64,000 nt of DNA from Gemmatimonadota bacterium (lineage in GTDB: Bacteria; Gemmatimonadota; Gemmatimonadetes; Longimicrobiales; Gaopeijiaceae), in contig JAUIEJ010000010.1 in the NCBI GenBank assembly GCA_030428885.1, positions 124,001 to 188,000 on the forward strand, written 5' to 3'. Positions 44,958 through 49,200 of this stretch are shown here, piece after piece. The first letter of the stretch is position 1, and each line of letters opens with the position of its first letter. The position numbers and the translations under genes are program-made. The notes beneath the pieces were generated by a model, which was not told the origin of the DNA, made no database searches, and saw nothing but the letters and a program-made list of their open reading frames with translations.

Positions 44958-45893
44958 TCACGCCCGACGGGCGCTGCGCTCCGACCCCGCCACGGCCAGG
45001 ACCTGGGCGATCCGGGTTACGGTGGCGACCGGCTCGAGGTCGAGCTGCCTCCACGTGATCCGTACGATTCGATACCCCAGGGACGAGAGGCGGGCGTCGC
45101 GGCGGCGGTCGGCCTCGAAGCTCTTTCGGGAGCCGTGGAAGGCGAAGCCGTCGACTTCCACCACGACGCGGGACGTGCGCCACACGCAGTCGAGTTCCAG
45201 ACCTCCGACCCGGCCGTTGGTTTCGGGCCGGGGCAGCCCGGCCTTCCCGATCCACTCGAGGAGGCGCTCCTCGGCCTCGGATCGTGTGAAGGCCGGTCCG
45301 GTGGATCCCGACACCAGGCTTCGCAGTCGCCCGGCCCCGGGGATGGGGCCCCGACGAACCAGCGCCGCCTCGATGGCCTCCGGTCTAGCCCGTCCGTCGC
45401 GGGTCGCCTGGGCATACGCCCGCTCGAGGGTGTGCGACGGCACCGCCCCGGCGACGTCGAGAAGGGTGGGGACGGGCGCGGTGACGGGAATACCCTCGAT
45501 CCGCTGCCAGTCGGACGGCGCCAGGGCGGGCACCCGGTGGGGTCGGATGCCGGGGCGTCGGCCGCCGTCCGTGCCCACCATGGAGACGTGGACCGGCGCG
45601 CGCGCCGGTTCCTTCGACGCGAAGCCGTGGAGCGCCAGGGCGGTGACGTGGCTCACGACGCCCCCCGGACCGCAGGCGAGGACGGCCGCCATCACCCTCG
45701 CCCTCGGAGGTTCGAGGCCGCCGTGCAGGGCACCGATCAGGTAGACCCCTCGATGGAGCCGCCGGAGGCGGCCCGATCTGCACTGCCGGTCGATCCAGGA
45801 GGGCGAGACCGGGAGGTCGAGCAGTTGTCGGCGGGTGACGACGCCGTGCTGACGGGCGGCGAGCGCCGCGGCGGCTCGTTCGGGGGCGGTCAT
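44958..45893 (-). CDS. AbiEi-like N-terminal domain fused to DUF559 nuclease-like domain
   Basis: The 311-residue product begins with an AbiEi_4-type winged helix: PERAAAALAARQHGVVTRRQLLDLPVSPSWIDRQCRSGRLRRLHRGVYLIGAL. A middle region follows (THV...ALALHGFASKEPARAPVHVSM, ITAPVPTLLDVAGAVP-like), and the C-terminus is DUF559, a Vsr/restriction-endonuclease fold: LELDCVWRTSRVVVEVDGFAFHGSRKSFEADRRRDARLSSLGYRIVRITWRQL. The acidic residues D and E of LDCVW..VVVEVDG are the nuclease-like catalytic ones. No AbiEii toxin gene is adjacent, so it is probably not a classical toxin-antitoxin pair. These genes occur in many copies in such genomes. A repeat cluster lies directly in front of the start. Confidence 0.8.
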   Translation of the reverse strand: MTAPERAAAALAARQHGVVTRRQLLDLPVSPSWIDRQCRSGRLRRLHRGVYLIGALHGGLEPPRARVMAAVLACGPGGVVSHVTALALHGFASKEPARAPVHVSMVGTDGGRRPGIRPHRVPALAPSDWQRIEGIPVTAPVPTLLDVAGAVPSHTLERAYAQATRDGRARPEAIEAALVRRGPIPGAGRLRSLVSGSTGPAFTRSEAEERLLEWIGKAGLPRPETNGRVGGLELDCVWRTSRVVVEVDGFAFHGSRKSFEADRRRDARLSSLGYRIVRITWRQLDLEPVATVTRIAQVLAVAGSERSARRA

Positions 45894-45901
45894 GGCGAGG
45901 G

Positions 45902-45946
45902 TGGGTGGCGGGTGGCGGGTGGCGGGGCGGGTGGCGGGGCGGGGCG
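45902..45946 (+). repeat. G-rich imperfect tandem repeat (GGGTGGCG/GGCGGGGC)
   Basis: About 45 bases consist of repeats of GGTGGCGG with GGCGGGGC variants, lying 8 bp upstream of the DUF559 gene start. Several runs of three or four G on this strand could form a quadruplex. It may be a slippage product with a regulatory effect, or simply neutral. Confidence 0.5.
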
Positions 45947-45948
45947 AA

Positions 45949-46130
45949 GCGAATTCCCCAACAGGGGCCCACAGCCCCCGTGATTCCGGGTTGGCGTCGC
46001 GAAGCGGTGGAAACGCCCCAGGCTGGCCTCGGCGGCCCATCGCGCTTGGGGAATCCACGTTGGTCCACGACGCAAATGCCCCACAGTCGGCTCGACGGCT
46101 CCCTGTTGGGGACTTCGCGTCGGCGAAGGA
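45949..46130. repeat. Cluster of short degenerate repeats in both orientations
   Basis: GCGAATTCCCCAACAGGG (45949-45966) recurs, inverted, as CCCTGTTGGGGACTTCGC (46101-46118) with one mismatch. Weaker relatives lie between: GCAAATGCCCCACAG (46072-46086) direct, GCTTGGGGAATCC (46044-46056) inverted and GCGAAGCGGTGGAAACGCCCC (from about 46000) direct. The region belongs to a 404-bp gap without a gene between the DUF559 gene and the M14 peptidase gene. The remaining about 170 bp hold no recognised element except a weak TAGGTT box at 46251. Confidence 0.55.
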
Positions 46131-46297
46131 GATCCACGGGCCCGCGCCGGCGACGGCAGCAAGGAAGCTGCTCCGGGCCACGGGGCGACCCCATGGGCCG
46201 TCGGGTCGGGGGCGACGGTCCCGCGAATGGCTGACCGCGGGGCCCCGTCCTAGGTTTGCGAGTCGAACCGACCGTCCCTCCGCCCGACGCGCCCGCC

Positions 46298-49200
46298 ATG
46301 ACGCACCGTCTTCGCCTCGCCGCCCCGCTCCTGGCCGCCCTCCTGCCCGTGCTGCTGGCGGGTTCGGGAGGGGAGCCGGCCGCGGAGACGTGGGGACCGG
46401 AACCCGCCGCACCGGCCACTTCGAGAGGGGAGCCGGCCGCGGAGACGTGGGGACCGGAGCCCGCCGCACCGGCCACTTCGGGAGGGGAGCCGGCCGCGGA
46501 GACGTGGGGACCGGAACCCGCCGCACCGGCCACTTCGGGAGGGGAGCCGGCCGCGGAGACGTGGGGACCGGAAGCCGCCGCACCGGCCGCGGGCAACGCG
46601 AAGGCCGCCGGCGCGACGGGTGCGCAGGCCGCCGCGCCGGCCCCAGACACGGTCGTCGACCTCCGGGATCTGTTCGCCGCCGGGCTGTTCGTCGACGACC
46701 GCAACGGCGACTCGCTGCCCGACTTCGTGGACGGGCGGATCGTGCTGGCGGCGGAGTCGACCCCCGCCGAGGCCGGCGCGGCGGCCGACCTGGCGGCCCG
46801 ACTGGGGTATGAGACCACCGCCACCGATCTGGGGCGGGCCGCCCGGATCGGCGACCCCGTCGCCGGGCCCGTGCTGCTGGTGGGCGACGAGGCCGCGGGG
46901 TCGGCAGGGATCGACGCCGCCGCCGTCCGCTCCACCCTGGCGCCGGGACAGGGGGCGCTGAGCCGGGTGGGCCCCTCGCCGGCCTATCCGTTCGGGGGCG
47001 TGGCCCTGGTGGGTTACGACGCCACGGGCCTGCTGGCGGCGTCGGCCTACCTGGCGGGGCGCTACCCGGCGGTGTGGGGGGTCGACGGCTCCACCTGGGC
47101 CAGTCTGTCCGCCGCCGCCGACACCTTCGCCGCCGTGGCCTCCCCCGACCTCGCCCCCCGGCTCACCCGCATCGTGGTGGACGCGGCCCGTCCCGGCGTG
47201 GCCCGGGCGGAGATGGCGGTGGCGGCGTCCGACGCCGCCGCCCGGGGCGCTCTTCTCGCGGCCCTCGCCGGCGAGCCCGCCGACACGACGGCCGACGACT
47301 CCGACGCCGACGACCCCCTCCAGCCCCTCCGGATTCGCGACCTCCACCGCCTGGAGTGGCACGTCGTGGGCGCCGGCGCCGACACCGTGGTGGCGGTACG
47401 CCCCGAGGAACCGTGGAGCCCGTCCAACGGGAGCGCCTACCGCCCCCCCTCCACCCCGCCCTTCTCCCTCGTCGACCTCTACACCGTCGACGGCCTCTAC
47501 CGCGACACCAACCAGGATCTGGTGCCCGACGAGAGCCGGGCGTCGCTGTCGCTGGCGTCGGGCGCCGTGGCCGACGGAGTGGTCGACCTGGCCACCCGCA
47601 TCGGCCTCGAGACCGCCGGCATCCGCCTGCCCCTGGCCCGGGTGGGCGGCCAGGAGGACGACCCCACCGCCAGGGGGTTCCCCATCCTGGTGGGGCCGGG
47701 CCACCACGCCCGCCGCGCCCTGGCCGCCGACGGCGGTATGCCCGGCGACGACGGCGCCCCGGGCACGGGCTTCGCCCTGCTCCTGGACCGTTCGTTCGGG
47801 CTCGGCGAACCCGAAGAGCGCCGGGGCGGTCTCGTGGTCGACGGCGCCGACGCCGACGGGGTCTCGGCGGCCCTCGACTGGCTGGCGGGTCGGGCCCCCT
47901 ATCTGTGGTCCCACGGAAAGGGCCAGGTGCGCCTCGCCGACCTCCAGACCGAGATCCGGCGCTTCCTCCAGGCCCGGAAGGCACCGGGCCAGGTCGCTCT
48001 CGCCCTGGCCAAGCTCGGCACCTGGATGGATCGGGACGCCGAAAGCGGCGCCGCACCCCGCCGCGTCGAGGTCGAACTCGTCGCCGAAGACGCCCCCGAG
48101 GGCCTCGCCGCCGTCGCCGAGGCCACGATCCGCGAGCGCTTCACCGACGCCGACATCGCCGTGGACACCTGGTCCAGCGGCTTCGGCCAGGGCGACACGA
48201 TCTTCGTGCAGGAGTGGGCGATTCCCTGGGAGGTGGACGACGCCCGCGCCCGTCTGGAGGCCGAAGTCTACCCCGCCGTCCGGCCCGGCGCCCCCGCCTC
48301 GGTGGAGCTCCGGGTGAGCGAGCCGCCGGCCATCCGGGCCCGACTCGCCGACGAGATCCGCACGCGCCTCGCCGAGGCCGGCGCCGATCCGGTGGACGTC
48401 CACGTCTTCAGCGCCTACAAGCAGGGCTATTCCTGGCTTGAGGACCGGGTCCTCCCCGAACTCCGGGAGGTCGACGCGGAGCGGATCGAGATCACCTACC
48501 ACACCCTGGACGAATCCGACGAGATCCGCTGGCAGACCATCGCCGCCGATACCCGGTGGCTCCAGGAACTGTACCCGGTGGACGCCGTGCTGGCCCGGGA
48601 ACTCGCCCTCTCGGACTCGGCCATCACCTTCACTCCGACCCGCACGGCCGACCCGATCTACACGGTGACGGCGCGGAACGCTGCCGGGACGGTGGTCTTC
48701 GAAGACGCCTTCACGCCCCGATACGTGGTGCGCCCGTTCTTCGATCTCTTCCCCGAGTACGAGCAGGTGCGCGTCACCACGGGGTGGCTTCACGCCGCCA
48801 TCGGGGGCGAGACGGTGCTCGACGAGCGCGTGGTCACCGATCCCGAGCGCTTCTGGGACCGCCTCCAGACCGAGACCTACGCCGAGATCGTGGACTACGT
48901 GCTGGACACCCAGGACGGCGCCCCGTCGCCGGCCAACGCACCGTTCTTCGACGAGTTCCACATCGACCTGCGCCTGAGCGAGCCCGACTACCGCATCGGC
49001 GTCGATGAAGAGGTGATCAGTTCCCTCGAGGCGCTCCACGAGGACATCTACTTCGAGACCCTGACCCTCTTCGACCTCATCGGGAGCCGCTACCAGACCA
49101 GCCAGCCCTATCCGGGGCGGGTGCTGCCCTGGATCGATCCGTCGGGCGCCGGCCAGCCGGGCCAGGCCCGCCTCAGCCTCAACGGCAAGGAGCGGGCGGG

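Follow-up and report, generated by a model that had tools for sequence, protein, structure and literature searches.

REPIN-like repeat arrays at genes for AbiEi/Vsr-like nucleases in Gemmatimonadota and a second phylum: a candidate counterpart of REP repeat and enzyme pairs

Introduction

What relation may hold between a nuclease and the short inverted repeats that precede its gene? This question is raised by a locus of a Gemmatimonadota bacterium contained in a 64,000-nucleotide stretch of contig JAUIEJ010000010.1 (positions 124,001 to 188,000; hereafter, the window), in which a gene encoding a protein with an AbiEi winged helix and a Vsr-like (MTES_1575/DUF559) nuclease part is preceded by a repeat array. 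A preliminary description of this locus had likened the pair to repetitive extragenic palindromic (REP) elements and their REP-associated tyrosine transposase (RAYT), and had suggested either that the protein acts on the repeats or that they are the site of its autoregulation by the winged helix. Based on the sequence comparisons reported here, we consider with moderate confidence that the array probably consists of paired inverted binding sites of the adjacent protein, and that such arrays became dispersed repeats resembling REPINs (REP doublets forming hairpins).

The repeat element and its copies in the genome

The core of the repeat cluster is a single element of 170 bp (45949–46118), the ends of which are GCGAATTCCCC and GGGGACTTCGC. 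This REPIN-like element is composed of three modules with a period of 60–63 bp, and six motif sites, of which two are near-perfect, three degenerate and one very weak, were recognized in it by eye. These include – from left to right – site 1, near-perfect (GCGAATTCCCCAAC, plus strand, 45949–45962); a weak variant at the expected minus-strand site of module 1 (45982–46000), presumptively assigned as a site, with an ATTCCGG core that is kept in five of six copies of the element; the degenerate site 3 (plus strand, 46009–46022, by eye); the degenerate site 4 (CTTGGGGAATCCAC, minus strand, 46045–46058); the degenerate site 5 (plus strand, 46072–46085, by eye); and site 6, near-perfect (GTTGGGGACTTCGC, minus strand, 46105–46118). 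Between the nuclease start and the next gene, a 22-nt inverted pair, 91% complementary, flanks more degenerate copies. The degenerate motif in both orientations had been described before and was found again, whereas the claim that its copies fill the space up to the next gene did not hold, no motif copies being seen by eye in 46119–46297. Considered by itself, the motif is not significantly enriched, with five matches to an 11-mer (at most one mismatch) in the whole window against 3.18 expected. In the 400 bp upstream of the gene, comparison with their own shuffles gave p = 0.02 for the best inverted pair and p = 0.05 for the sum of inverted pairs. Rfam returned a single match, below threshold. 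An integron attC site, suggested by CCCCAAC/GTTGGGG cores, was dropped on inspection by eye as the outer bases and the spacing did not fit.

The element belongs to a family of at least six copies in its own genome. Five homologous places were found elsewhere, at C2:71916-72085 (170 bp), C15:41706-41876 (171 bp), C20:87950-88057 and C20:167884-167991 (108 bp each) and C15:360862-360944 (83 bp). The alignment of each of them with the window element beats 200 of 200 shuffles, and three of the six copies are nearly equal in length (170, 170 and 171 bp) despite widely differing sequences. This family was recognized only by inspecting places that matched a pattern, as plain blastn with the whole element missed the copies and an 18-base pattern with up to three mismatches was not enriched in number (18 matches versus 22 for the backward pattern); among eight such places fetched, five were elements and three were not. 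A sequence model trained on the six copies recovers those six and had no strong match when applied to twelve other genomes (best E 0.0013, in G003), and an nhmmer search over 645 kb of the own genome yielded no additional copy of the family. Further degenerate copies in the own genome may exist, since 150 of 7859 first-look candidates were scored there.

Repeat families at related nuclease genes

Homologues in related genomes likewise have gene-specific motifs in both orientations in their flanks, as seen by eye. Four more families, each marked by a separate motif and spread over the genome in which the gene resides, were found in G022, in genus g17, in G394 (Solirubrobacterales, another phylum) and at a paralogue in the own genome (L017). 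In G022, the motif AACTCACCAATCG (at most one mismatch) occurs 23 times versus 0 for the backward pattern, and clusters of several copies stand at 10 of the 11 places fetched; the counts for three other genomes are 2, 0 and 4. Genus g17 contains 17 elements that can be aligned end to end; a search with a model of this 177-bp element located 16 places in G021 and 16 in G130, near full length in 8 and 13 cases, respectively, and no match in 11 other genomes. Shorter forms measure about 118 and 59 bp, indicating 59-bp modules in threes, twos and ones, and one copy lies upstream of the nuclease gene in both genomes. G394 contains 50 exact motif sites among the matches listed, versus 2 and 1 in two other genomes, and 119 sites with one mismatch versus 51 for the backward pattern. 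Out of 20 places picked by hand from the list of exact sites, 16 are an element of 111–112 bp with sites arranged at +37-23+37-, one of which stands about 15 bp before the nuclease gene. The family of L017 is separate from that of the window and has four further places in 645 kb, with a spacing of 62/124.

Dispersal, a mostly extragenic location and restriction to a genome or genus are common to the five motif families. Dispersed copies are intergenic in 38 of 43 cases versus 18% of control DNA, according to crude gene calls. A family copy flanks the enzyme gene in the window and at L037, L033/L085, L099 and L017; in each family one copy adjoins a nuclease gene and the others stand alone. Independence of the motif from DUF559 genes had been named beforehand as a finding that would speak against a link: most copies are indeed not beside such a gene and one is, as for REPs and RAYTs, and searches of other genomes for the families tested did not find them there. 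Three orthologous sites carry three modules in G130 versus one in G021, with clean module boundaries; at other orthologous sites the element is present in both, and for five G130 sites the counterpart was not found in the 607 kb of G021 searched.

Association with the gene family and common spacing

The association was assessed using a base-weighted repeat score (an earlier, unweighted score was weak) and, as controls, windows placed upstream of other genes, between genes or at random in 20 stretches of related genomes, delimited with a simple gene finder based on GC content at third codon positions and unmatched in gap length. The duplicates L047, L089, L090, L091, L093, L094, L095 and L097 were left out of the inverted-pair, direct-repeat and spacing counts, and L085, near-identical to L033, was left out of the spacing counts. 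The sum of inverted pairs reached p ≤ 0.05 versus own shuffles upstream of the nuclease gene in 19 of 42 regions, downstream of it in 9 of 40 and within it in 3 of 47 gene bodies, as compared with 7 of 73 control upstreams (Fisher versus control, 1.9e-5 upstream and 0.057 downstream). The best direct repeat reached p ≤ 0.01 in 22 of 42 nuclease upstreams versus 6 of 73 control upstreams.

The direct repeats in the flanks of these genes show a distance peak at 60–63 bp. This spacing, the bin for which was picked after inspection of the discovery families, was found in 19 of 82 flanks; among the controls, intergenic windows had it in 3 of 98 cases (p = 3e-5) and random ones in 8 of 397. An out-of-sample check on 20 further loci, partly from the same genomes, gave 12 of 37 flanks (p = 1e-5 versus 3 of 98). 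Because the motifs are unrelated and the geometry is nevertheless common, the sequences point to the shared protein as its probable source.

The nuclease and the likeness of the array to AbiEi-type operators

The nuclease gene (44958–45893, minus strand) is intact and encodes 311 residues, as judged from its translation, Pfam, PADLOC and an AlphaFold model. Pfam assigned residues 8–53 (45735–45872, minus strand) to the AbiEi_4 winged helix (8.6e-11), whereas the Vsr-like nuclease part, supported by Pfam and homologue alignment, spans residues 213–299 (44997–45257, minus strand); the protein matched MTES_1575 at 2.8e-9, slightly below its cut-off, DUF559 at 2e-6, and the PADLOC AbiEi model at 1.1e-30. 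The structure modelled from 13 homologues (predicted local distance difference test 88.7, predicted template modelling score 0.65) matched in PDB, using Foldseek, AbiEi (6y8q), Rv2827c (1zel), which is among the top structural matches, the homing endonuclease I-Bth0305I (3r3p, template modelling score by target 0.81) and Vsr (1cw0, 0.52 by target). In the nuclease part, D235, E246, D248, H253, E260, D262, D266 and W281 are invariant in 13 of 13 homologues, and D235, E246, D248 and H253 are presumably the catalytic residues, as in Vsr. No relatives of the gene were found in plasmid records (tblastn, E 1e-15) or viral contigs. The homologues at L023, L030, L036 and L087 have one in-frame stop in the matched stretch and may be decayed nuclease genes or reflect assembly errors in the relatives.

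According to the published account, AbiEi and Rv2827c each bind 23-bp inverted repeats that precede the gene for the protein itself, two in the case of AbiEi and four in that of Rv2827c; the Rv2827c promoter contains two pairs of such repeats, with gaps of 13 bp inside a pair and 4 bp between pairs, and all four were bound in vitro (PMC7319586). By arithmetic on these figures, the Rv2827c operator has a period of 63 bp and a pair offset of 36 bp, and the window array has pair offsets of 36 and 33 bp and a period of 60–63 bp. Because its geometry fits the Rv2827c operator and Rv2827c is a top structural match of the protein, the array looks like an AbiEi-type operator by analogy. Paired inverted sites in a unit of about 63 bp before the gene were found at part of the loci only.

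In the mechanism that we favour, the product of the neighbouring gene would bind, through its AbiEi winged helix, three site pairs with a period of about 61 bp; if so bound, the array would therefore probably serve the protein to regulate its own gene, through repression. Autoregulation by the winged helix, as proposed at the outset, is favoured by the match to the operator geometry given in PMC7319586. The arrays, with a motif private to each nuclease lineage, would have turned into dispersed non-autonomous repeats, as REPINs for RAYTs, a Vsr-like nuclease taking the part that the HUH/Y1 enzyme plays there. That the adjacent protein binds the array and regulates its own gene is what we infer by analogy with these operators; as a weaker inference, the Vsr-like domain may nick or cut inside the arrays and so drive their copying, repair or strand transfer then spreading the modules.

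Alternative explanations

Several observations weigh against the proposed origin of the elements from binding sites of the nuclease protein. The spacing is not universal, being present at 17 of 46 loci and at 12 of the 20 out-of-sample loci, and, with L039–L041 left out, protein identity and flank similarity show no rank correlation over all locus pairs (Spearman 0.02); flank motifs are nevertheless alike chiefly where the proteins are fairly close, five of the seven flank pairs above 30 bits being relatives with an identity of at least 0.53. The copies of the window family are few and their model scores arise by construction, as they formed the training set. Within the own genome, no element was visible by eye at the L018 paralogue, and a search of 645 kb for the L020 motif found it nowhere else. 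No exact or wholly empty site was seen in the comparison of G130 with G021, in which the differing numbers of modules might have arisen by deletion between direct repeats.

It is also conceivable, at fairly long odds, that the array is an operator only, that is, an autoregulatory AbiEi site, the dispersed copies being a regulon or decoys under selection and without mobility. The binding of inverted repeats by AbiEi and Rv2827c before their own genes (PMC7319586) would agree with this, as would an enrichment that is stronger upstream than downstream and motif copies that mutate independently, as duplex sites would. Against a pure operator speak the copying of complete units of 111 or 177 bp, the ends of which are fixed, the 8 of 32 intergenic copies with both neighbours called that lie between convergent genes, where there is no promoter to control, and the elements downstream of the nuclease gene at L017, L040 and L083.

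Movement of single-strand hairpins in a RAYT-like manner, with the nuclease nicking the hairpins, appears rather improbable. The REPIN precedent (PMC3116915) speaks for such a mechanism, and so does the predicted folding of the window element, which is strong as DNA or RNA (z −2.25 to −2.67). Compensatory changes were, however, almost absent from 14 aligned G394 elements of one family, in which most changes at paired positions affect a single partner and disrupt the pairing; the hairpin mechanism is less favoured because these positions hardly co-vary.

There is a slim chance that the elements are miniature inverted-repeat transposable elements (MITEs) of an unrelated transposase that landed by chance beside the gene. 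The terminal inverted motifs and defined length are MITE-like, but five families with different motifs, from two phyla, and the out-of-sample set all show the association, and the common 60–63 bp spacing would need a coincidence. A Y1 (RAYT-type, PF01797) transposase was found in none of five genomes, other transposase classes not having been searched. Lastly, an origin by chance, or by tandem expansion confined to a rapidly evolving flank, agrees with the frequent direct repeats in these flanks and with a window motif that by itself does not exceed shuffles, but is scarcely credible given the homologous copies at distant genome places. We retain as the preferred explanation that the arrays are binding sites of the adjacent protein that became dispersed.

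Other features of the locus

Short G-rich tandem repeats with 7- and 12-bp units lie between the start codon and the element (45893–45946, Tandem Repeats Finder), a G-rich tandem tract having been noted in the preliminary description. Direct repeats, often short tandem ones, are frequent right before the nuclease start in this gene family and possibly form length-variable leaders. At 46183–46196 (minus strand) there is a box close to CCATGGNNNCGCCC in the sense of the gene; in 12 of 32 loci a similar box precedes the nuclease gene by about 100–430 bp, and it also occurs before other genes (75 in the own genome versus 5 for the backward pattern), and is promoter-like. The gene neighbours are an ADOP permease and a gene previously named M14, which corresponds to a large open reading frame carrying near its start four tandem 57-bp copies, in frame and 97% alike (46363–46588). 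No toxin partner (AbiEii/DUF1814) was identified beside the nuclease gene, no toxin model having been run on the neighbourhood. Beside another nuclease paralogue, at the end of contig C23, near-identical 197-bp tandem copies are present (L306:3-635), with a diverged tandem array 15 kb off (L306:15809-16478).

Comparison with known systems

No dispersed repeat family is known to be associated with Vsr or with the EDxHD homing endonuclease I-Bth0305I, which have in common with the present protein the C-terminal fold (1cw0 and 3r3p) and the invariant acidic and histidine residues. Caulobacter VsrA likewise has a DUF559/Vsr-like nuclease domain and is sufficiently active in cells that a DNA damage response depends on it; in the accessible part of that report, it is tied to a solitary cytosine methyltransferase and not to repeats (PMC12907096). 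A published account presents MTES_1575 as a nuclease of the Vsr fold that is fused to HEPN, the part of the source at hand making no mention of repeats (PMC3710099). Among open PMC papers, which defined the scope of the search to the exclusion of subscription papers and preprints, no report of a DUF559/AbiEi nuclease associated with such repeats was found. The AbiEi and Rv2827c antitoxin operators of the type IV toxin-antitoxin system AbiE are similar in the AbiEi fold and winged helix and, for the Rv2827c promoter, in paired inverted sites with a 63-bp unit (PMC7319586); the present system differs from them in its fused nuclease domain and in arrays that are spread through the genome.

RAYTs are the sole enzyme class known for REP repeats. 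RAYT genes are flanked by REPs with which they co-evolve, and the numbers of genes and repeats are strongly linked, according to two studies (PMC2817692, PMC3116915). As described there, REPs, bacterial interspersed mosaic elements (BIMEs) and REPINs with their RAYT (TnpA-REP) resemble the present system in having repeats that are extragenic, palindromic, modular and private to a lineage, one copy of which sits next to a gene dedicated to DNA processing. The enzyme there is of the HUH/Y1 type, whereas here it is an AbiEi and Vsr-like nuclease, with 60-bp operator-like modules, fewer copies (between 6 and a few dozen) and no clear hairpin covariation in the family tested. The analogy drawn in the preliminary description holds for inverted motif repeats tied to a gene family and for five dispersed, private families; it fails for the enzyme and for compensatory change. 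The system resembles REPIN-RAYT pairs in its working, yet does not belong to them, because the defining Y1 enzyme is absent from five of five genomes.

It may be, although we would put it at somewhat short of even chances, that this is a second, independently evolved REPIN-type system, characterized by operator arrays of the nuclease turned mobile, binding of the paired sites as duplex by the enzyme, copying of 60-bp modules to other parts of the genome, co-evolution of motif and protein, and a private family per lineage and paralogue. The system looks like an unrecognized counterpart of REP repeat and enzyme pairs, with sister genes in two bacterial phyla. It gives a testable role to the uncharacterized fusion of AbiEi with DUF559/MTES_1575 and suggests a route from a protein's own operator to a dispersed repeat. 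If true, the link of REP-like repeats to a further nuclease, unrelated to the RAYTs, would allow the general features of such pairs to be told from those specific to HUH enzymes.
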